Assembly: GCA_017629515.1 (NCBI GenBank)
Contig: JAGBXB010000054.1
Span: forward strand, 1-64,000
Length of the DNA: 64,000 bases
DNA from: Lentisphaeria bacterium
Lineage (GTDB): Bacteria; Verrucomicrobiota; Lentisphaeria; Victivallales; UBA1829
Direction of reading: 5' to 3'
The position numbers and the translations under genes are program-made. The stretch's first letter is position 1; each line of letters begins with the position of its first letter. The notes under the pieces were generated by a model that was not told the origin of the DNA, did not search any database, and saw only the letters and a program-made list of their open reading frames with translations. This document shows, in pieces, positions 1,921 through 53,573 of the stretch.

Positions 1921-3030
1921 ATGGCTGAGAGTGTTTCAACTAAAATTGAAGGCAAGAAATCAGAATACAAGGGTAAAAAATTGCGCGTTGCCATTATCGG
2001 CTGCGGCGGTATTGCCCAGACTCACATGAAGGCGTATCAGGAGATCCCGGAAGTCGAAATCGTCGCCGGTGTCGATATCAAAAAAGACCGCCTCGAACTG
2101 ATGAACAAGGAATGGGGCATTCCCAAGAAGGCTCTCTTTACCGATTGGAACAAGATGCTCAAAGAGATCAAGCCCGACGCTGTCGACGTCTGCACCCCCA
2201 ACGGAGTCCACTGCGCTCCCGTGGTCGATGCCTGTAACGCCGGCTGTCACGCAATGGTCGAAAAACCCATGGCCATGTCCCCCAAAGAATGTGAACAGAT
2301 GATCGCTGCCGCCAAGAAGAACAAAGTCAAACTTTCTGTCGGATTCCAGCAGCGTTACCGCACCAACACCCAGGCTCTGATCCAGGCCCGTGAAGAAGGC
2401 CGTTTCGGCGATATCCTGTTTGTCAAGTGCCAGGCTCTCCGCCGTCGCGGTATCCCAAACTGGGGTGTTTTCGGTCAGAAGGAACTCCAGGGCGGCGGTC
2501 CCATGATCGATATCGGCGTGCACATCCTCGAATGCGCCTGGGAATTCATGGGCTCCCCCAAACCGGTCGCAGCCAGCGGCAACTGCTGGACATATCTCGG
2601 CGACAAGCCCAGCAATATCCGTAACGCATGGCCCAACTGGGATTACAAGACCTACACTGTGGAAGACCTTGCCATCGGTCAGATCCGTTTTGAAAACGGT
2701 GCCATTCTGCAGATCGAATCCAGTTTTGCCGCACATATTCCCAAAAACGACATCTTCAACTTCACCGCTATGGGAACCAAGGGCGGATGCTCCTGGGAAG
2801 ATGTTGCCATCTATACCGACGAGCATGATATGATGATGAATATGACTCCTTCTTACATGCCCAACGACGGCTGGCTCACCATGTTCACCAAGAAGCTGAA
2901 AAACTGGGCTCAGGGATGTCTTAACGGAACTGAACTGGATGCTTCCGGTGAAGACGGTCTGGGCGTGCAGAAGATGCTCGATGCCATCTACCGTTCCGCC
3001 GAAGCCGGTAAAGAAGTCACCATCAAGTAA
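1921..3030 (+). CDS. Gfo/Idh/MocA family NAD(P)-dependent oxidoreductase
   Basis: This 369-residue cytoplasmic protein has an N-terminal Rossmann fold after a ~20-residue lysine-rich extension, with GCGGIAQTH as the dinucleotide loop. The EKP motif (VEKPMAMSP, Lys near residue 114) and the DIGVHILECAWEF segment near residue 197 supply the usual catalytic Lys and His, so it should be an active sugar or inositol dehydrogenase; the substrate cannot be read. AGGAGTTAGAAAAAA precedes the ATG. The next gene encodes a TIM-barrel isomerase/epimerase 38 bp downstream, a common pairing for catabolism of keto-sugars or inositols. Confidence 0.92.
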   Translation: MAESVSTKIEGKKSEYKGKKLRVAIIGCGGIAQTHMKAYQEIPEVEIVAGVDIKKDRLELMNKEWGIPKKALFTDWNKMLKEIKPDAVDVCTPNGVHCAPVVDACNAGCHAMVEKPMAMSPKECEQMIAAAKKNKVKLSVGFQQRYRTNTQALIQAREEGRFGDILFVKCQALRRRGIPNWGVFGQKELQGGGPMIDIGVHILECAWEFMGSPKPVAASGNCWTYLGDKPSNIRNAWPNWDYKTYTVEDLAIGQIRFENGAILQIESSFAAHIPKNDIFNFTAMGTKGGCSWEDVAIYTDEHDMMMNMTPSYMPNDGWLTMFTKKLKNWAQGCLNGTELDASGEDGLGVQKMLDAIYRSAEAGKEVTIK

Positions 3031-3068
3031 AATATTTTTACAGAATATTCCCAAGGACAAAAAACCAA

Positions 3069-3932
3069 ATGAAAATCGGTGTTATTGTCGAATCCTTCTG
3101 CGAAGATCTGCATACAGCTCTGAAATCCGCCGCTTCCATGGGGATCCAGGGCGTTCAGATCTACGCCTGCCACCACTCACACAAATCTCTGATCGAGATG
3201 AGTTCCGCAGAACGTTCTGATCTGCTCAAATACATCAAGGATCTCGGTCTGGTGGTTTCTTCGATCTGCGGAGATCTGGGCGGCCATGGTTTCCAGGACA
3301 AAGAAGGAAATCCCAAGCGTATCGAATTGAGCAAGCAGATCATCGACGCCTGCTGCGAAATGGAAACTGCTGTGATGACCACCCATGTCGGTGTGGTCCC
3401 CACAAAAGATGAATCTCCTGTTTATCAGGAAATGGTGCGCGTTGCCAAGATCGTCGGCGAATATGCCGTCGCCAACGGTGTGACTCTCGCTATCGAAACC
3501 GGTCCGGAACCGGCTGTCCGCCTGCGTCACTATCTGGAAGATATCGGGCTCAAGGGCATCGGTGTCAACTTCGACCCCGCCAATCTGGCGATGGTGGTCA
3601 AAGATGACGCGGAAACTGCTGCCGCAACTCTTGCACCCTGGATCGTCCATACTCACGCCAAGGACGGCAGAAATCTGCGTCCCTGCAACCCCGCTGATGA
3701 ATACGGATCACTGGAACTTTCCGATCTGACTCCTGCTGCAAACCGGAAAAAACTCGGTCCGGCATTCCTGGAAGTTCCGCTGGGTCAGGGCGATGTGAAC
3801 TGGGATGGTTATTTCCGTACCCTCAACAAGATCGGTTATAACGGATTCCTCACAATCGAGCGCGAGGTCGGCGACACTCCCAAAGCTGATATCCAGTTGG
3901 CTGTTGACTTCCTCAAAGCCCGTATCGGCTGA
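3069..3932 (+). CDS. Sugar phosphate isomerase/epimerase (xylose isomerase-like TIM barrel)
   Basis: The 287-residue protein begins MKIGVIVESFCEDLHTAL and contains the metal-ligand segments of the AP_endonuc_2/xylose-isomerase-like fold: AIETGP (Glu), VNFDPANLA (Asp), HTHAKD (His) and a C-terminal IEREVG (Glu). Members isomerise or epimerise keto-sugars, inosose or related compounds in the cytoplasm with a divalent metal. It lies between two Gfo/Idh/MocA genes, so it probably works on the product of one of them. A strong intrinsic terminator follows 22 bp after the stop codon. Confidence 0.88.
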   Translation: MKIGVIVESFCEDLHTALKSAASMGIQGVQIYACHHSHKSLIEMSSAERSDLLKYIKDLGLVVSSICGDLGGHGFQDKEGNPKRIELSKQIIDACCEMETAVMTTHVGVVPTKDESPVYQEMVRVAKIVGEYAVANGVTLAIETGPEPAVRLRHYLEDIGLKGIGVNFDPANLAMVVKDDAETAAATLAPWIVHTHAKDGRNLRPCNPADEYGSLELSDLTPAANRKKLGPAFLEVPLGQGDVNWDGYFRTLNKIGYNGFLTIEREVGDTPKADIQLAVDFLKARIG

Positions 3933-3954
3933 GAGATGTTGTGATCATTCACAA

Positions 3955-3985
3955 GGGCTGCTGTAAAACGCAGCCCGTTTTTTTT
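3955..3985 (+). terminator. Intrinsic terminator between operon genes 2 and 3
   Basis: GGGCTGC (3955-3961) pairs with GCAGCCC (3970-3976) around an 8-nt loop and is followed by eight T (3978-3985). It sits only 18 bp before the start codon of the next gene, so it should reduce expression of that gene. Confidence 0.85.
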
Positions 3986-4003
3986 GATACAAGGAATTGT
4001 TTT

Positions 4004-5197
4004 ATGAAAGATTTCCGTTTGGGAGTAGTTGGGCTCGGACATCGCGGACGGGCAATGTTTACCGAAGCATGCAAATGTCTTTTCGGCATCAAAGGTGTTG
4101 CCGCATGCGATATCAATCCGGCATTGTGGTACGATGACATATTGCGGGATAAAGCAGTGCATCCCTCCATGGCTTCACAGCTGCCCGATGTGAAGTTTTA
4201 CGAGAGCTATGACGAGATGCTGGAAAAGGCTGATCTTGATATCGTCATGATCGAAACTCCCGCCACATGTCATGCAGAGTTCTGTATCAAAGCTCTCGAC
4301 CGCGGGATACATGTATTTTCCGATATCCCGTCAGTCCGGGATCTGGTTGAAGCAAAAGATCTCTGGGAGGCTCATTTGCGTTCCAGTGCCAAACTTATGA
4401 CCGGAGCCACCACCATGGGCTGGGGATTCTGTCTGTCGCTGCAGGATCTTTACCATCAGGGCCTGCTGGGCAAGCCTTACGCTTTGGAAGCTGAATATAT
4501 CCACGACTGCCGCGGTCTGTGGGAGGAAACCCCGTGGCGCAAGCCGACCACAAAATTCGCTTCGGTCCCCTGTTCCTATTCGACTCACTCGCTGGGTCCG
4601 ATGCTTGCGGTGCTGGAAGAAGATCTGACCGAAGTGGTGTGCATTTCCTCCGGCAGTCATGTGACTGAATTTCCTCATGCCAATGATTACACCTGCGCGC
4701 TGTTCCGGACACCTTCAAAAGTCACCGTACGGATGACATGTTCTTTTATCAACAACTGCAAATCCGGACTCCACAGTTTCCGGGTATTCGGAACGGAAGG
4801 CTGTTTTGAACATCTTTCGCACCGCGGCGAAAAACAGCCGATGCGGACGACTTTCAGCAGCAACAAACTGGTCGGAGCAGATGCTCCGGTCGAACTGCCG
4901 GTGGGATTCTCGCCTTTTTCAGATGCAGTGAAACGGCAGTACAAATACAAAGGCACTTTCGGACACGGCGGTGCTGATTCCTATTTGTGGCTGCGCTTTA
5001 TCGAGGCCCTGCAGCGCGGCGACGAGGTGATGCCCATTTCACTCCGGGACGGTTTGCGCATGACGCTGCCGGGGATCTACGCTGTGGAATCGGTGATCCG
5101 TGACGGAGAAAAGGTGGCGATCCATTATCCGTGGCAGAAAGAGGAGTTCCAGAAGGATATCGAAACTTGCTCGCCCAGATGCACCGGACGCAAATAA
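4004..5197 (+). CDS. Gfo/Idh/MocA family protein lacking the EKP lysine
   Basis: Starting at the ATG at 4004 (ribosome site CAAGGAATTG) gives 397 residues; an in-frame upstream start would run through the terminator and is rejected. The N-terminus MKDFRLGVVGLGHRGRAMF is a Rossmann loop. At the place of the EKP motif (about residues 104-109) it has VFSDIPS, so the catalytic lysine is absent. Related proteins may be glycosidase-like or sugar-binding members of the family rather than simple dehydrogenases. It is the third gene of the operon but separated by the terminator at 3955, so lower expression is expected. The substrate is unknown. Confidence 0.85.
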   Translation: MKDFRLGVVGLGHRGRAMFTEACKCLFGIKGVAACDINPALWYDDILRDKAVHPSMASQLPDVKFYESYDEMLEKADLDIVMIETPATCHAEFCIKALDRGIHVFSDIPSVRDLVEAKDLWEAHLRSSAKLMTGATTMGWGFCLSLQDLYHQGLLGKPYALEAEYIHDCRGLWEETPWRKPTTKFASVPCSYSTHSLGPMLAVLEEDLTEVVCISSGSHVTEFPHANDYTCALFRTPSKVTVRMTCSFINNCKSGLHSFRVFGTEGCFEHLSHRGEKQPMRTTFSSNKLVGADAPVELPVGFSPFSDAVKRQYKYKGTFGHGGADSYLWLRFIEALQRGDEVMPISLRDGLRMTLPGIYAVESVIRDGEKVAIHYPWQKEEFQKDIETCSPRCTGRK

Positions 5198-45319: not shown

Positions 45320-45449
45320 TTCTGTCGCTCTTTCAGAGATTGTTTTTTTATTTTGTACTCCTACCCGGGGGTACGGTCCCTTACAGGTCCCTACCCGCCG
45401 GGCTATGTTCCTGCGGGGCTTTCAGCCCCTCCTGCCCTTTCAGGGCTGG
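45320..45449. repeat. Interspersed repeat, copy A (inverted with respect to copy B)
   Basis: About 130 bp beginning TCTGTCGCTCTTTCAGAG and ending CCCTTTCAGGGCTG, rich in small GC palindromes. The reverse complement of copy B at 45759-45885 aligns along its whole length with mismatches. No transposase is present. It resembles short palindromic repeats of the REP or MITE type. The flanking 45450-45758 stretch is AT-rich and shows no gene. Confidence 0.7.
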
Positions 45450-45758
45450 TTTTGATATTTATTTTTTAATCCATACAATGAACCGGCAATAACCAATTTT
45501 GCAAAAATCTGCCTGAATCATTTTCCTGAACAACTAAATATACACTCCTCAAATATAAAGAAAAATAACGGGGTATTACAAAATGATAAGATAATTGTGA
45601 TTTTTATTCACAGGTATCCCATAATTTTAGAAAAACACATTTTTCTCCAATATTTGAACAGAGGATTTTCTGGTTTAAAAAAGTGATTTTGTCAGATTTC
45701 AATATTTGAGTCGGAGTAAAAGGATCAAAAAAGAATTTTATTCCACGGCGAAGCAAAA

Positions 45759-45885
45759 CAGCCCTGAAAGGGCAAAGGCTCTGTAAGAGCCGTAAGCAAA
45801 CAGCCCGGTGGTAAGTCCTCTGAAGGAGGACGCAGCCCCGGGGTAAAATCCCGAAAAAAAATCAAGCTCTGAAAGAGCGGCAGAA
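45759..45885. repeat. Interspersed repeat, copy B
   Basis: Opposite orientation to copy A: it starts CAGCCCTGAAAGGGCA and ends CTCTGAAAGAGCGGCAGAA. It contains the extra internal palindromes CTCTGAAGGAGG and GGCTCTGTAAGAGCC. A third, partial copy of the outer end (TTCTGTCGCCCCTTTGGGGC) lies near 45908-45930. Copies A and B together may have formed from a small mobile element. Confidence 0.7.
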
Positions 45886-46200
45886 TATATCAGACACACT
45901 TTTTCCTTTCTGTCGCCCCTTTGGGGCTTTGTAAGGCTTTAAAATTTGATTTATAGTCTGATCAGTTGTGACAGCCTTACAGGAAACAATAAACTTCCAA
46001 CTTGACATAAAAAAGTTTTCACAGGATATTTGTGATTCATTTCAGTAAATTTACTTTTTATGGGATCGTTGTGATTTTTATTAGATAATTGCGTTATTTT
46101 TTTATTATCTGCTTGCATTTATCGTTTTGAAGCAGTAACTTATTTATGCTGCCAATTGTGGCAGTGGCTAATTGACAACTGTTCATATTTTACGGCAAAT

Positions 46201-46380
46201 ACGTCCAAAACCGACCAAAATAAAACGTTTTTTGTCTTCTACACCCACAGGTGAATTGTGTCCAGCGGGATTGTGCCTTGATTTTTGCACAGTCTTGCCG
46301 GATGTTCCTTTTTGCATTGGGTGTAGTGGGCTCTTGGTCGGGCCTTGGACGTAGTGCAAATCTGGAATATCCGGCTTTTT
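46201..46380 (+). ncRNA. Rod-shaped structured RNA candidate (6S-like shape)
   Basis: Nested pairing: ACGTCCAA (46201-46208) with TTGGACGT (46345-46352), CCGACCAA (46211-46218) with TTGGTCGG (46334-46341), CTACACCCA (46239-46247) with TGGGTGTAG (46318-46326), and the apical stem 46262-46276 with 46287-46301 (14 of 15 pairs including three G-U on this strand). A 14-by-16-nt internal loop lies in the middle. A short hairpin CTGGA/TCCGG and nine T follow at 46362-46384. Two possible promoters are upstream (TTGCAT-17-TAACTT at 46113-46141, TTGACA at 46172). No Rfam match is claimed. The shape recalls 6S RNA, but a cis-acting leader for the gene at 46490 is possible. Confidence 0.5.
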
Positions 46381-46489
46381 TTTTGCCTTGAGTATTCTAT
46401 GATCTTGCGTTATTCACTGAAGACCTGTTTGTCCTTTGAATTTTCTTGCTGTTGATTATTGAACGGTAAAAAGAGAAAGGATTAAAAAA

Positions 46490-47026
46490 ATGCACATCTT
46501 CGCAAACTTGATTGGAACGCAGGCACTTGCCATCATGGAAAAACAAATTAACTATGACGGTCCCTGCTATGTACGTCTTGTAGGCCGCAAATCCGGGGTT
46601 GTTGATTGGATTTTGACAATCTTCAAGGTTAATACAACAACAGTTCTGGAAGTTTATGCGGACAGAATAGAATATTCTTATGGTTCTTTATCCGGCTCTG
46701 TTTTAGAAGTAATTCCTCTTTCAAAAGTAAGTAATTTACTTTGTGGTTATTTCAAACCCGTTATTTTGTTAGTTATCGCTGCTATTTTTGTCCTTCTTGC
46801 GTTGCCAACATTCGGTACATCTCTTATTCCTGCTGTTCTTTGCCTCATTTATTATTTTCTCAAAAAATCTGTATTGATTTCTGTCATTCCCAACAGTGCA
46901 AGCGGCTGCGCCGTGGCATTCAAACGTTCCATTATTGAAAATCAAGACATTACCGAAAAAGAAGGAGAAGAAATCATCAAAGTGATAACACAATTGGTTG
47001 AAAATGCCAATAAAAAGAACTACTGA
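46490..47026 (+). CDS. Hypothetical membrane protein with PH-like N-terminal part
   Basis: 178 residues; AAAGGA precedes the ATG. I do not recognise the family. An N-terminal segment of about 80 residues looks like a compact beta domain (TTVLEVYADRIEYSYGSLSG), followed by two hydrophobic helices (PVILLVIAAIFVLLALP and LIPAVLCLIYYFL), then a hydrophilic helix with EKEGEEIIKVITQLVENA. A bacterial PH-like domain with membrane anchor is one possibility. It follows the structured RNA by about 110 bp and converges with the addA gene. Confidence 0.6.
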   Translation: MHIFANLIGTQALAIMEKQINYDGPCYVRLVGRKSGVVDWILTIFKVNTTTVLEVYADRIEYSYGSLSGSVLEVIPLSKVSNLLCGYFKPVILLVIAAIFVLLALPTFGTSLIPAVLCLIYYFLKKSVLISVIPNSASGCAVAFKRSIIENQDITEKEGEEIIKVITQLVENANKKNY

Positions 47027-47094: not shown

Positions 47095-50000
47095 TTATGC
47101 CATGGGAACAATTATCACCTTTCCGCAACGCAATGCAAGAATTTTACATTCCACTTTTTCCAGCGGGATCTTCAATAAACTTGACGCCGCTCTTCTGTAA
47201 ATATTCAACTGCGGGGAATATCTTTCCAGAAAGATTTTTTCCTCTTCCTCCCGGTCACTTTTATAGTCGATGACCGTTGCACTTATGCAAATACCCTCTT
47301 CATCATATTCCGCAACAAGACGGTCAAAAATCCCGGAAATATAATTGCCCGCCTCCTTATCCGGAAGCAGAAAGGAGCGTTCTTTCCGCAAAGAAGCAGA
47401 AAAACTGCCCGGATGTTTCAAAGCGTTCCGTATGGCGGAACTTTCCCAGGCATATGCCAGAAGTTTCCCCTCTTCTGTTGCCAGCAGTTCTTTTCCGAAA
47501 GTCTTTTGCAAATATTCTTCCGGAGGAGAATTATCATAAAAATTGATCTTGCAGAAGAGTTCATGCACCTTTGTCCCAAGATCTGCTGCTGTACCAGAAA
47601 GAGAAAATCTTTTTGTTTGTGTGATCTTTGTAAAAATATCCGTATGTTGAGAAGGTTTGGGCGCATTGGATAATCTCTCCTTTTCAGGGAAATGAATAAG
47701 ACTCAAACTGCTTGCGGAAGAAACTTTTTCACAACTTTGCGCATATTTTGCAAGGCATTTTCCGGTAAGGAGATTATTGCGTTCCACAAGTTCATTTTTT
47801 TTCTGCTCATTTTCTTTTTCAGAACGCTTTTTCTCTTCAAAAAGGCGTCTTTCCTCTATTTCCCAGTTTTCATTCCCTCTTTCCCATAAGGAAACCATAT
47901 CTGCATCAATATTCCTTACGGGCAATTGTTTACTTTCAAATATGCTTGCGCAAAGAGTTGCCATATTGATACTTTTACTGCTTTCGGTTTTTTCCTCGCC
48001 GAAAAGATACAAAGAGTGTTTCGCCCGGGTCATCCCCACATAGAGCATACAGCAGCTTTCATAGGCGCCTGCATCTTTTAATTTCGTTGCAAACTCATCC
48101 AGAACAGGTACACTTTTCAAATACTGTTTTGCCGGAAATGCCGTAAGGAAACGGGGGGAAAAATCTTCCGGATCTTTATTGAGGAATATTCCCTCATGCA
48201 ATTTTATCCCAGCCATACTGTCCCCATTGATATCCGGCATGATCACGATATCAAAGGCAAGCCCTTTGGATTTATGATAGGTCATACACTGTACAGTATT
48301 GCGTAAGGAGATCTCATTGCCAGCCTCCTCATAGGCAAGGAGAAGGAATGTATCTATATCCGTCATCCCCTGCTTGTCATATTTCCCTGCAGCCTCCGCA
48401 AGGCTTCTTAATCTTCGTTCATCGAAAGAAGTCAAGTTCTGCCGGAATGCCTCCATAAAGGAGCGGAAAAAGAGTTCAAAGCCCCCGTTGGCAAGATCGG
48501 AACGCACTCCATTATACAATGCCTCCGCTCCGGAAAGATCGGCAGGACACATATATCCCATTTTCTCTGCCAGAACTTTCTCATCCACTTTTTCCTCTCC
48601 CAGTTCCAGCATTTCAAACATTTTTCCAACAAAAATATCTCCGGGATGTGCCGTTCCCAGAAGCACATAATAGGCAAGCACACAGAAAAGACTGTCTCTC
48701 ACAGATAAACGGCTGTCCAGAGAAACCGGAAGATTGACCTTTTTCCCGGCAAGAAGATCCTGTATGGTAAATTGCCGGATATATTCGGCAAATTCCCCTG
48801 CCGCCGAGTTTGTCCGGAAAAGCACCCCTGTACTGAAAGGACATTTTTCATTGAATGGATCCAGTTTGACCAACAGATCATATACTTTCCGGTACTTTCT
48901 TTCTCTGGCACTTTTTGTTTCCCCCCGACTGACGGCGGGAAGTTGATAATAACAACTGTACCCTTTCTGTTTTGCGGCGGAATCGGAGGAAATATGTTTT
49001 TCATACTGCATTTTTTTCATTGCAGAATACAAAATCATTTTATCCTCCGCCTTTTTGATACCGACTATGGCATCCGGATTCATGAAAACCGTATTGACCA
49101 TATCCAGCACCTCATTGCAGGAACGGTAGGATCTGATAAGCGTACTTTTTCTTATCCCCCGCTGACCATAAATACTTTCCGGAAATTTTTCCAGGATCAT
49201 ATTGAACAATCCCGGATTACCATTACGCCACTGGTAAATGGACTGCTTGATATCCCCCACGTAGAAAAAGGATCTCCCTCCATCCGGATCGGTGATCGCC
49301 TCTTCCGCAAGGCGGGAAATGGCGTTCCACTGGTTGTCGCTGGTATCCTGAAATTCGTCGATAAGGTAATGATCGGTCTTTTCATCCATCCGTTCCTCTA
49401 TCCCTGCCCGGTCGGAAAAGGGAAGAGCCAGTCCGCTTTCTCTGCTGTCGGAGGAGGGCCTCAATAAATAGGGGATATCGGAAAAGGTGATCTTGCCGGA
49501 ACTGCGTACAAGAAGAGCATATTTTCTGTTGAAAAGATCCAGAAGTTTCCAGAGAGCCTCATTGCGTCTTACAAGACTTTTTATATTGCAGTAAAGGATA
49601 TGCCGCATAAGAATAACAGTATTCTGATAAAAATCCCCCTGCAGAAGATACTCTTTCCGGTTGTAGGGAAGAAGCAGATCGCTTCTCCCCTCTTCCGTTA
49701 CCGGAAACGCAGGAAGTGCAGAGGTGAATTTTTCCCATATACGGAGAGTATTTTCCTCTGCTTTGGGGTTATCCTCCGCTTTCAGGGCATCGGCGAGAAT
49801 GGAGGAAAAATTGTTATATAGTCTTTTTGTATCAGTATTCTCTCTGTACGGGGAAAGGAAGTCATTCAGTTCGTCTATATAAGTTTCAGCGATTTTCTCC
49901 AATTTTTTCTTACTTGCAAAATAACTTTCCGGAACAAGATGCCGTAACTCTTCCGAACACCAGAAGCAATAATCCGGACAGGCAAGAAAACAGTCATACA

Positions 50001-50679
50001 GAGAAAAAACAAGTTCTTTTACCGTCCCGTAAAGATATTTATTATTTTCCCCGAAGGAAATTTCTTTGATGAGTTCCATGATCTCCCTGCGGTCTTCCTG
50101 CCCCAGTTCTTTCAAAAGTTCCAGAAGAGTATTGACCCGGTTTCCGGTATCACTTTCCTCCATGATGGATAACTGCCCGTAAATACCGCATTCCAGAGGA
50201 AAGGCACGGATGATATTGACAAAGAAACTGTCCAGGGTACTGATCTGCAATTTTTCTTTGCTTTTCAATAATCTTCCCAATATACCGCAGGCGCGTTTTG
50301 AATCAAAATTGCCGTTATGGAAAAGTGGGAAGTTTTCAGCAAACTTCTTTGCCTTTTCTTCCGATGAAGCCAGTTGGATCAATTCTTCTGCGATCTTGTC
50401 ATAGATCTCGCCTGCCGCCTTTTTGGTAAAGGTGGAGGCAAGGATCCTGCCCGGATTCACTCCGGCATGGAGCAGGGCTATATACCGCATGGCAAGGGAA
50501 AAAGTCTTTCCCGTTCCGGCAGAAGCCATGATAGCTTCATTTCCGGGAAGCATATTTCTGCATTCGGGAAATTCCTGTTCAAAAAGATCAGAACAGTCTC
50601 TTCCGGCTTCTTCCGGATATTTTTCTGAAGAGTTTTTTTCCATTGTCTCTTCAAAAAAGTATTCTTCTTCTCTGTCCAT
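47095..50679 (-). CDS. addA: AddA-like ATP-dependent helicase/nuclease
   Basis: About 1194 residues. UvrD-type motifs: Walker A ASAGTGKTFSLAMRY near residue 50, DEFQDTSDNQW (motif II), and YVGMTRAKHSLYLFG (motif VI). The C-terminus has the RecB-type nuclease: GIFDRLVAEYDEEG followed by VIDYKSDREEEEK. With AddB it should process double-strand breaks for RecA-dependent repair. The ATG at 50679 shares bases with the addB stop (TGATG), with AGGAGGAG upstream; a GTG at 50682 is an alternative. It is the last gene of the minus-strand operon. Confidence 0.9.
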   Translation of the reverse strand: MDREEEYFFEETMEKNSSEKYPEEAGRDCSDLFEQEFPECRNMLPGNEAIMASAGTGKTFSLAMRYIALLHAGVNPGRILASTFTKKAAGEIYDKIAEELIQLASSEEKAKKFAENFPLFHNGNFDSKRACGILGRLLKSKEKLQISTLDSFFVNIIRAFPLECGIYGQLSIMEESDTGNRVNTLLELLKELGQEDRREIMELIKEISFGENNKYLYGTVKELVFSLYDCFLACPDYCFWCSEELRHLVPESYFASKKKLEKIAETYIDELNDFLSPYRENTDTKRLYNNFSSILADALKAEDNPKAEENTLRIWEKFTSALPAFPVTEEGRSDLLLPYNRKEYLLQGDFYQNTVILMRHILYCNIKSLVRRNEALWKLLDLFNRKYALLVRSSGKITFSDIPYLLRPSSDSRESGLALPFSDRAGIEERMDEKTDHYLIDEFQDTSDNQWNAISRLAEEAITDPDGGRSFFYVGDIKQSIYQWRNGNPGLFNMILEKFPESIYGQRGIRKSTLIRSYRSCNEVLDMVNTVFMNPDAIVGIKKAEDKMILYSAMKKMQYEKHISSDSAAKQKGYSCYYQLPAVSRGETKSARERKYRKVYDLLVKLDPFNEKCPFSTGVLFRTNSAAGEFAEYIRQFTIQDLLAGKKVNLPVSLDSRLSVRDSLFCVLAYYVLLGTAHPGDIFVGKMFEMLELGEEKVDEKVLAEKMGYMCPADLSGAEALYNGVRSDLANGGFELFFRSFMEAFRQNLTSFDERRLRSLAEAAGKYDKQGMTDIDTFLLLAYEEAGNEISLRNTVQCMTYHKSKGLAFDIVIMPDINGDSMAGIKLHEGIFLNKDPEDFSPRFLTAFPAKQYLKSVPVLDEFATKLKDAGAYESCCMLYVGMTRAKHSLYLFGEEKTESSKSINMATLCASIFESKQLPVRNIDADMVSLWERGNENWEIEERRLFEEKKRSEKENEQKKNELVERNNLLTGKCLAKYAQSCEKVSSASSLSLIHFPEKERLSNAPKPSQHTDIFTKITQTKRFSLSGTAADLGTKVHELFCKINFYDNSPPEEYLQKTFGKELLATEEGKLLAYAWESSAIRNALKHPGSFSASLRKERSFLLPDKEAGNYISGIFDRLVAEYDEEGICISATVIDYKSDREEEEKIFLERYSPQLNIYRRAASSLLKIPLEKVECKILALRCGKVIIVPMA

Positions 50680-53573
50680 CACCGTTCTCCTCCTTCCCTG
50701 TTTTCCGCAGAAGGATTTTCCTTTGATTTATTTTTCTCTGCCGCATCCGGGAATTTTACTCCCCGCAGTACAAGAGAGGGCATCTCCTGAAAGAGATCCG
50801 CAAAATCATCATATTTTACTTTCTTATCCGGGTCACCTTTGAAAAGTTTTTCTTTCATCATCTGTAATTCAGACCCTATCGACTGTACTTTTTCTTCCGC
50901 TTTTTCCAGAATTTCCTCCATATCCTCCCAGATTTTTATTCCGGTGGAAGTAACGGCTTTGGGCAGATTGAAGTATCCGCACTCGATCTTCATTTTTTCC
51001 ATATCCGGGAGGGAATATTTTTTTCTGAAAAAAGCGTCTTTTCTCAAAAGAATGGCATATAAAGGCAGCTGTAAGGAGAGAAATTCCATCTTTTCCCCGC
51101 TTCCTTTACAATGGGCGTTTTCCGGTTCGATCCCGGAATTGGCGGTTTTGAAATCCAGTACCCGCAAAACTTTTTTATCCTTTGAGATTTCAATTCTGTC
51201 GATCCTTCCCGTTATATCCATTCCGGCAAAATGGATCGCCCCTGTGCCGCCCTCCTCTTTCTTTCCTCCGAGAGTATATTCCTGACACAATAAGGAATAC
51301 TTTTCCTCCTCCCGGAGCAGAATGGGAACAGCAGCATACAATCTTTGTAAAATAAGATCTTTCTGTAAATCCACAAGGAAAGAGAGTTTCTCCCCGTAAT
51401 TTTCTGCAAGATATTTTTCCAGAAGTTCCCGCATCTTTTCCTGCAAAGAAAATATATCCCGTCCCTGACTTTCTTTCAAAGATTCAAAAACATAATGACA
51501 GGCGTTTCCGAAAGCGGCATCATCCATCTCCTTTGCTGTATAATCTTTCATCTCCATTTTCATAATGTGTTTCAGGAAAAAATGCAGCGGACTTTCCAGA
51601 TAGGTGGAAAAAGCAGTAACAGATATCCGGATATTTTCCAGTTTATTTCTGTATTTTTCCACAGGCAGACGGAAATAAAAATCGTTGGGCAATATACTTT
51701 CCTGCTGCCTTTGTTCCGGCATGGGCAGAGGTGCGGAAAATAAAAGAGAAGCTCTGGAAAGCATATTTTCTCTTTTTCCGCGGAAAAGAAAGGGGGAAAA
51801 TCTTGCAGGCGTACCGTCGGCAGAAAATTTGGAAGCAAAAAATCTTACTTTCCCACCTTTTTTTCTTCTGCGTGCAATACTTTCATAAAGGTAGAAAGCA
51901 TCTCTTGCCGCCCTCTGGGGATTTCCGGGAAGCCCCAGGGCAAGACGCTGGGAATCATTGATAAAAGGATTGGGGTCGATCTTTTCCGGCACAAAACTTT
52001 CACTCATCCCGCAAAGAAGAAGTTCCTCCGCTTCCAGATTGGGCAGTTCCAGAAAACCATGCAGTTCCACCCTGCGGGAGGCAAGTTCCCCGTAAAGCAC
52101 ATCCGAAGCACACATTTCTTCCAGCAGGGAGAAAAATTCCTCCTTTTCCAGTGCACGCAATACGGGACTTGCCATACACTTTTTCAGAAACTCTTCCAGA
52201 TGACGGCATTGGGCTTCAAAAGAGATATTTTCCGTATCTTTTCTATCGCAGGGGATACTGTAAATATCGGTAAGGATGGAGGCAAGATTTTCCGGAAGAG
52301 ACCCGGAAGACATCTTTGCACATAAATAGTTACATTCTTCCAGAACCTTTTTCATTTCCTTATCTGCAAAGGGGATCAGTGCGGCAGGGTCTTCCGGAAG
52401 ATGTTCCAGAAAAATGGTATCAAGTTTTGCCAGAAACGCATTTTCCTTCACAGAGGCAAGGTGACAGCAATAAAGAAGAAAATCCTCATGATGCACCAAT
52501 TCCCGGAATGAATCAAAGGAATTGTTTCTCACAAACCGGATGAGGGCGGAAAGCAGTTTTCCTGTTCTCGTTCTGCCGAAACATACGCCGGAAGGATCAT
52601 AAAACTGAATATTTTTCCCGCCCAGGTTCTGTAATTCTTCTTTGAAAAAGGGCATGAGGGAGGCATCAGCACAGGCAAAGGCACTTTTTTCCATTTCCAG
52701 CCCCCCTTTTCTTGCGGCAACTGCTACAGCAAGTTTTGCCAGATCCGCCGCCTTTTCCGTATGAAAAAATGTTTCCTCATCTTTTCCCTGTTCAAAGGCG
52801 GTATTTTCCCATTTTTCCGGAACAGGATTGCCCCATTCATCAAAATATTCTTCCATGGAAGAGGGTGCCTGTATCCATATTTCCACTTCTTTTGTATCCG
52901 CAAAGCGTTCCAGCCTTGCCTGTACCGCAGGGAGCAGTCCCGGAACAGCACAAACAATGATCTTTTTATATTCCTCCAACTCTTCTTTTTTTTCCAATGC
53001 TTCCTGCCGGCTTTGGGGCAGAGTAAAATGCAAAAGAGAAAAACGGTCCACTTTCCCATAGGCAGCCAATTCCTTATGGTAGAGTTTTTCCAGTTCCCGT
53101 ATCTCTTTTCTGCGTTCGGGGTCGATTGCGGGAGTCCGGATAATGGCATCTTCCAGAGTCATTCCGCCGAGACTCAATTCTTTCAGGAAAGAAAAAAGCA
53201 TTTTGCTTAAATAGAAAGCATCGGAAAATGAGGGGGCTTTTTCTTCCGTAAAAAGCGTTGGATATTTTCTGTGATCGCAGGAAGCCAGTACTCTTGCCAA
53301 AAGAATATTGCTCTCATATTCCGTTGCCGCATTTTCCAGATTTCTCCCTTTTTCCAGAAAACTCCCCTGGCTCATCACCTCCGGCACAAAAAGTCCATCC
53401 GGTACCTTTTGCGCCAGATGCCGGAAAAATTCCCTTATGGCAAAACTTCCCGGCATGATCATCAATATCTGTCCCAAATCAGGACACGAAGAACTCAACT
53501 CTTCCGTCAGGATCTTTTCGGAAGCAAGAAACGGCAAGGCCCCCTCAAAACCTAAAAATACTCTTTTTTTCAT
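50679..53573 (-). CDS. addB: AddB-like PD-(D/E)XK nuclease/helicase-like subunit
   Basis: 964 residues. The N-terminal helicase-like half is divergent and lacks a usable Walker A motif (GALPFLASEKIL). The C-terminal nuclease part has ITGRIDRIEIS and LRVLDFKTANSG as the Asp and Asp-x-Lys elements. The four cysteines that form the iron-sulfur staple in Bacillus AddB are not seen near the C-terminus, so the nuclease probably folds without the cluster. It is coupled to addA and overlaps the AraC gene by four bases. Confidence 0.82.
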   Translation of the reverse strand: MKKRVFLGFEGALPFLASEKILTEELSSSCPDLGQILMIMPGSFAIREFFRHLAQKVPDGLFVPEVMSQGSFLEKGRNLENAATEYESNILLARVLASCDHRKYPTLFTEEKAPSFSDAFYLSKMLFSFLKELSLGGMTLEDAIIRTPAIDPERRKEIRELEKLYHKELAAYGKVDRFSLLHFTLPQSRQEALEKKEELEEYKKIIVCAVPGLLPAVQARLERFADTKEVEIWIQAPSSMEEYFDEWGNPVPEKWENTAFEQGKDEETFFHTEKAADLAKLAVAVAARKGGLEMEKSAFACADASLMPFFKEELQNLGGKNIQFYDPSGVCFGRTRTGKLLSALIRFVRNNSFDSFRELVHHEDFLLYCCHLASVKENAFLAKLDTIFLEHLPEDPAALIPFADKEMKKVLEECNYLCAKMSSGSLPENLASILTDIYSIPCDRKDTENISFEAQCRHLEEFLKKCMASPVLRALEKEEFFSLLEEMCASDVLYGELASRRVELHGFLELPNLEAEELLLCGMSESFVPEKIDPNPFINDSQRLALGLPGNPQRAARDAFYLYESIARRRKKGGKVRFFASKFSADGTPARFSPFLFRGKRENMLSRASLLFSAPLPMPEQRQQESILPNDFYFRLPVEKYRNKLENIRISVTAFSTYLESPLHFFLKHIMKMEMKDYTAKEMDDAAFGNACHYVFESLKESQGRDIFSLQEKMRELLEKYLAENYGEKLSFLVDLQKDLILQRLYAAVPILLREEEKYSLLCQEYTLGGKKEEGGTGAIHFAGMDITGRIDRIEISKDKKVLRVLDFKTANSGIEPENAHCKGSGEKMEFLSLQLPLYAILLRKDAFFRKKYSLPDMEKMKIECGYFNLPKAVTSTGIKIWEDMEEILEKAEEKVQSIGSELQMMKEKLFKGDPDKKVKYDDFADLFQEMPSLVLRGVKFPDAAEKNKSKENPSAENREGGER

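Follow-up and report, generated by a model that had tools for sequence, protein, structure and literature searches.

A multicopy RNA with two mutually exclusive conserved folds in Lentisphaeria as a candidate transcription-attenuation leader

The locus and its nested-stem RNA

The window, i.e. the whole stretch of DNA analysed, comprises 64,000 nucleotides of contig JAGBXB010000054.1 from a Lentisphaeria bacterium (assembly GCA_017629515.1). An RNA of nested stems lies on its plus strand upstream of a gene coding for a protein of 178 amino acid residues, for which Pfam gave no match. Upstream of the RNA, at 45401-45950, are several short hairpins that are palindromic and related to each other in sequence. 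Two long adjacent open reading frames on the minus strand (47095-50682 and 50679-53573) resemble by eye an AddA/AddB helicase-nuclease pair. The Rfam family RF01687 (Acido-Lenti-1) matched below threshold at 45907-45927 and above threshold at positions 1029-1074 of the homologous locus L017.

The features of the locus are listed below. Changes on both sides of a pair were counted in alignment A4, which comprises 74 copies of the RNA.

46113-46141, plus strand: promoter-like TTGCAT-N17-TAACTT, seen by eye where 93/110 copies carry the motif; putative leader promoter
46149-46164, plus strand: P0, small 5' hairpin CTGCC/GGCAG of the predicted fold; sequence variable among copies
46194-46236, plus strand: P6, hairpin of the terminator state (GGCAAA + ACGT / ACGT + TTTGTC), present in the window's forced-terminator fold
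46200-46208 / 46345-46353, plus strand: P1 (5' strand / 3' strand), predicted fold; both-side changes in 7/8 pairs
46211-46218 (CCGACCAA) / 46334-46341 (TTGGTCGG), plus strand: P2; 98.3% of cells paired, both-side changes in 4/9 pairs
46234-46247 / 46318-46331, plus strand: P3; top covariation score among all helices
46251-46315, plus strand: P4, apical stem-loop (strands 46251-46276 / 46287-46315), predicted fold and covariation
46297-46308, plus strand: terminator 5' arm GCCGGATGTTCC, within P4; 12 bp with 46364-46375, both-side changes in 9/13 pairs
46329-46344, plus strand: P7, hairpin GGCTC-TTGGTC-GGGCC; excludes P2, covariation in A4
46364-46384, plus strand: terminator 3' arm GGAATATCCGGC (46364-46375) followed directly by nine T (46376-46384), from window sequence and fold
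46490-47026, plus strand: gene for the 178-residue protein with hydrophobic stretches, starting 105 nt after the T run; putative regulated gene

The region 46195-46400 folds at -82.7 kcal/mol versus -51.9 ± 4.3 kcal/mol in 200 dinucleotide shuffles (z -7.1, none of the 200 as good) with stems P1 to P4 predicted, which bears out the first-pass annotation of a nested-stem RNA; the structure is real. Between P2 and P3, the predicted fold leaves 15 nucleotides unpaired on the 5' side versus 2 on the 3' side and hence contains a one-sided bulge. The central loop of 14 by 16 nt described earlier corresponds to the interval between P3 and P4, although only when the weak pairs within this interval are ignored. 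The three G-U pairs reported in the apical stem are present. G-U outnumbers A-C in all helices of the 74-copy alignment except P2 (P3 185 v 17, P4 133 v 22, P5 252 v 3, P2 2 v 5), which identifies the plus strand as the RNA. The nine T had been attributed to a short local hairpin; the T run stood, but the hairpin (CTGGAATATCCGG, 5 bp) is a weaker pairing of the same arm and was rejected in favour of the 12 bp pairing between GGAATATCCGGC and GCCGGATGTTCC. Inverted repeats occupy the place equivalent to P0 in other copies, as seen by eye. A leader peptide in the window (ATG ... TGA frame across P0) was rejected because by eye the frame is not kept in other copies.

Copies in other genomes and conservation of two folds

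At the DNA level, a search across 41 genomes identified related sequence in several genomes of the same family. The covariance model R1, built from nine copies, matched in 30 of 36 genomes of the family, with up to eight copies per genome. At the level of the order, 77 of 137 genomes matched, nearly all of them from two families. A sample of the phylum contained matches in 58 of 387 genomes, five of them outside the order, and a second model including distant members (R2) matched in 94 of 197 genomes of the class. The exact core pattern was present in 91 stretches of named genomes. Among the 80 of these that were listed, most derived from Lentisphaerae, Lentisphaeria or Victivallales of rumen and gut, together with one Thermoguttaceae MAG (L223, model score 141.6 bits) and two Bacteroidetes MAGs (L169, 39.7 bits, and L196, 45.3 bits). 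Single outliers, for example L223, might result from errors in MAG binning. A link to phages was rejected, since two core patterns had no match in viral_contigs. Many copies lie at contig ends (L065, L066, L122, L136 and others), as if near-identical sequence had broken the assemblies there. Two copies differ in architecture: on the minus strand of L016 (G009:C96, approximately 223-275), the middle is missing and hardly any sequence separates the P2 5' strand from the terminator 3' arm, and the copy at L089 (4993-5199) carries a palindromic insert of approximately 57 nt near P4.

The RNA family is new, is absent from Rfam and belongs to none of the families tested. At curated thresholds, Rfam 15 matched nothing in the whole window besides four tRNAs, and no match covered the RNA in the homologues L002-L005, L017, L169, L196 and L223. 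No description of the family was found in the literature searched, including PMC2864571 and PMC8040213.

Alignment A4 was calculated with MAFFT from the sequences of 74 copies with no structural information, and covariation was scored for all possible helices. The eight best helices were P3, P1, P2, the terminator helix P5, P7, P6, P4 and PK; after the eighth, PK, the score drops from 27.6 to 14.1, about half. P1 to P4 constitute the rod, and P8, P6, P5, PK and P7 the terminator set. P5 is a helix of 13 pairs formed by the P4 3' strand and the next nucleotides with the segment that immediately precedes the U run, and is by its sequence a predicted intrinsic terminator of 12-13 bp. As the P4 3' strand contains the terminator 5' arm, P4 has the antiterminator role, and the two elements are mutually exclusive and both kept by covariation. 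The second exclusion concerns P7 (consensus GGNUC-loop-GRN'CC), which reuses the P2 3' strand, TTGGTCGG in the window; its N/N' pair (columns 210-221) is UA in 49, CG in 24 and other in 1 of the 74 copies (98.2% of cells paired). P6 is mutually exclusive with P1 and with the base of P3 and covaries at columns 37-82 (UA 32, AU 18) and 41-81 (AU 22, GC 22, CG 4). Part of the covariation in P6 and P8 may be a lineage effect.

In A4, 90.5% of the rod cells are paired, with both-side changes in 25 of 41 pairs and a covariation of 0.486 versus 0.185 in shuffled and at most 0.092 in slid controls. The stems of the first-pass annotation are thus kept across homologues via compensatory changes. For the terminator set, which is absent from the model R1 by which the copies were collected, 93.7% of cells are paired, both-side changes occur in 23 of 39 pairs versus 11.9 in shuffles (0/500), and the covariation is 0.327 versus 0.236 shuffled and at most 0.124 slid. 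The shuffle control ignores the relatedness among copies, hence the slid control and the cases of shared bases weigh more. In L149, L257 and L259, bases in the columns common to P2 and P7 co-vary with both partners. Three positions change in L149 and L257, where the shared base turned to U and both partners to bases pairing with U; in L259, coordinated differences at four positions leave nine pairs of P2 and five of P7 intact. Such co-changes are otherwise hard to explain and argue that both P2 and P7 are used. An automatic search recovered terminator arms in L254 (13 bp) and L196 (11 bp), and none adjoining a T run in L260, L257, L223 and L169. By eye, the arms are visible in L260 and L257; the T run of L223 is interrupted and that of L169 lies further down.

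Energies were compared by forcing the terminator arm alone. In the window, the rod reaches -87.8 kcal/mol versus -81.1 kcal/mol for the forced terminator fold. In 73 of 74 copies, no fold had a lower energy than the rod. The terminator fold was a median of 18.7 kcal/mol above the minimum, coming within 10 kcal/mol in only 9 of 74. P7 formed unprompted in all 74 forced folds, P6 in 47 and P8 in 43. Because the rod is the more stable fold, a leader at equilibrium would read through, and termination would need co-transcriptional timing and kinetics or a trigger.

Promoter-like motifs and downstream genes

Of 110 copies, 93 carry a promoter-like motif (TTG..N15-18..TA...T) at a distance of 45-130 nt upstream of the core, versus 8 of 110 in a control region and 18.6 in shuffles; its -10 end lies at a median of 65 nt upstream of the core. 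The -10 element of the window deviates from the family motif and is a weak match. A promoter scan of the window did not list 46113-46141 and listed 46002-46030 instead, and its two sites are no excess over the 1.7 in shuffles. From the promoter-like TTGCAT-N17-TAACTT, the RNA probably starts near 46148. A promoter directly before the core (TTATATT linker) was dropped for this better motif further upstream. Runs of at least five T occur within 45 nt after the core in 97 of 109 copies, versus 26 of 106 in controls. After the U run, many copies (L009, L010, L064, L123, L134 and others) carry a conserved stretch GCTGGATTTCGCAGC, often followed by GTTGNGGAATCGGC.

Gene orientation was evaluated with a crude caller of longest non-overlapping frames. 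The first downstream reading frame of at least 150 amino acids is co-oriented with the RNA in 63 of 67 cases, the upstream one in 33 of 51. With a minimum of 60 amino acids, the next frame is co-oriented in 86 of 102 copies and on the opposite strand in 16; none was present in 8 of 110 copies. Promoter-like motifs between terminator and gene were present in only 7 of 59 spacers, the chance level (shuffles 4.35 ± 2.0). By motif and orientation counts, the RNA thus has the position of a leader: most downstream genes seem to rely on the promoter before the RNA and hence to be transcribed through the terminator.

The 68 downstream proteins fell into 45 clusters, the largest with 14 members (zinc-ribbon and Sel1-repeat proteins), followed by one of 7 (AIDA-type adhesins). 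Pfam (30 downstream proteins) and PADLOC (7), applied also to proteins at distant loci, indicated Sel1, AIDA, ankyrin and BspA repeats with a caspase domain, a WYL regulator, a permease, radical SAM proteins, Mrr-type and PD-(D/E)XK nucleases, N6 methyltransferases and a TibC glycosyltransferase; some proteins were matchless. A related methyltransferase gene lies downstream in both L098 and L257, although the two come from different families. The downstream genes are accessory (adhesins, Sel1/zinc-ribbon proteins, restriction-like nucleases) and affiliate with no single pathway. This diversity does not allow a ligand to be named. In one of the Bacteroidetes MAGs (L169, region 2545-4063), the RNA begins 82 nt after a tyrosine integrase gene, which hints at a link to mobile elements; in the other (L196), a relaxase-like gene and one for GmrSD are found in its vicinity.

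A putative attenuation leader and its alternatives

The conserved dual folds and their mutual exclusion, computed from the alignment, combine with the leader-side promoter-like motif and the co-oriented genes. Together they make it probable that the RNA is a cis-acting, riboswitch-like transcription-attenuation leader before variable accessory genes. As a second option, the first-pass annotation had suggested that the RNA is a leader regulating the gene at 46490; orientation, promoter-like motif, terminator and covariation all fit this assignment. Switching in the cell would proceed as follows. RNA polymerase would start approximately 50-60 nt upstream of the conserved core. The nascent rod of P1, P2, P3 and P4 would occupy the P4 3' strand, no terminator would form, and the accessory gene would be transcribed. 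Upon loss of P2, its 3' strand would close into P7; the segment between P4 and P3 would then serve as a toehold for the downstream arm, by which P4 would be pulled open. Completion of the 12-13 bp terminator before the U run would turn the gene off. The trigger is most likely a protein or small molecule binding the region of P2 and the A-rich bulge, which is a guess. Several observations stand against a leader: the much higher energy of the terminator fold than of the rod, the copies with an opposite-strand or no next frame, the formation of P6 and P8 in only part of the forced folds, the weak promoter match of the window, and the four loci in which the automatic search found no arm.

Leaders of NusG paralogues or antiterminator proteins answer to proteins. 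The attenuator may likewise answer a protein instead of a small molecule, a version of the leader reading that we regard as possible without favouring it; its probability is contained in that of the leader and does not add to it. The diverse and accessory nature of the downstream genes is consistent with a protein signal, as are the integrase, relaxase-like and GmrSD genes near the Bacteroidetes copies, although this context comprises two loci only. Still within the attenuation reading, we tentatively propose a leader class that is widespread, occurring in Lentisphaeria as well as in further families of the phylum and in some mobile elements of Bacteroidetes. By a double strand exchange, with individual bases taking part in two helices, it would place accessory and conflict genes, namely those for adhesins, restriction-like nucleases and repeat proteins, under the control of a single cellular signal common to all. 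If true, a phylum that has received little study would harbour an orphan class of switch RNAs, present in many copies per genome and placed before interaction and defence genes instead of metabolic ones. Mutation of the covarying shared bases would give a direct test of the switch mechanism that requires no knowledge of the ligand.

An unlikely alternative is a trans-acting small RNA, for which the terminator merely ends the transcript and the released RNA refolds to the stable rod as its working form. The far greater stability of the rod, the RNA's own promoter-like motif and terminator, and the multiple copies per genome agree with this explanation, but it does not predict the stronger co-orientation of downstream than upstream genes or the few promoter-like motifs between terminator and gene, and it offers no clear reason for the conservation of P7. 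6S RNAs form release hairpins, and a diverged 6S RNA mimicking an open promoter and released when P7 forms during pRNA synthesis would account for the long rod with its A-rich one-sided bulge and the hairpin on the 3' strand; it is nevertheless very improbable, given that RF00013 (cut-off 46.4 bits) exceeded its cut-off neither in the own genome (0/1) nor in any of 137 genomes of the order, versus 4 of 14 named genomes in a control search, that one genome contains up to eight copies, that the downstream genes are co-oriented, that the bulge of 15 nt versus 2 nt lacks the two-sided opening of a central bubble flanked by two long stems, and that the apical stem supplies the terminator. The 6S resemblance noted in the first-pass annotation was therefore abandoned: the covariance search it had suggested returned neither 6S nor any other Rfam model, with only chance-level matches and no 6S family at 45900-46600 for E values up to 10.

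Among described candidates, HMP2_4205 is terminator-like as well, occurs mostly in Bacteroidetes and lies near tetratricopeptide-repeat genes; the likeness is one of description (PMC8040213). The RNA resembles 6S RNA in its long rod of nested stems and in the unpaired region within this rod, but differs by its cis position before genes, its multiple copies, its apical-stem intrinsic terminator and the lack of a covariance match. SAM and T-box leaders are transcription-terminating riboswitches and attenuators. They resemble the RNA described here in having their own promoter, a mutually exclusive antiterminator and intrinsic terminator, and a gene just downstream. In contrast, the present family has no match in Rfam, combines two linked strand exchanges (P2/P7 and P4/P5) and precedes very mixed accessory genes with no metabolic theme.
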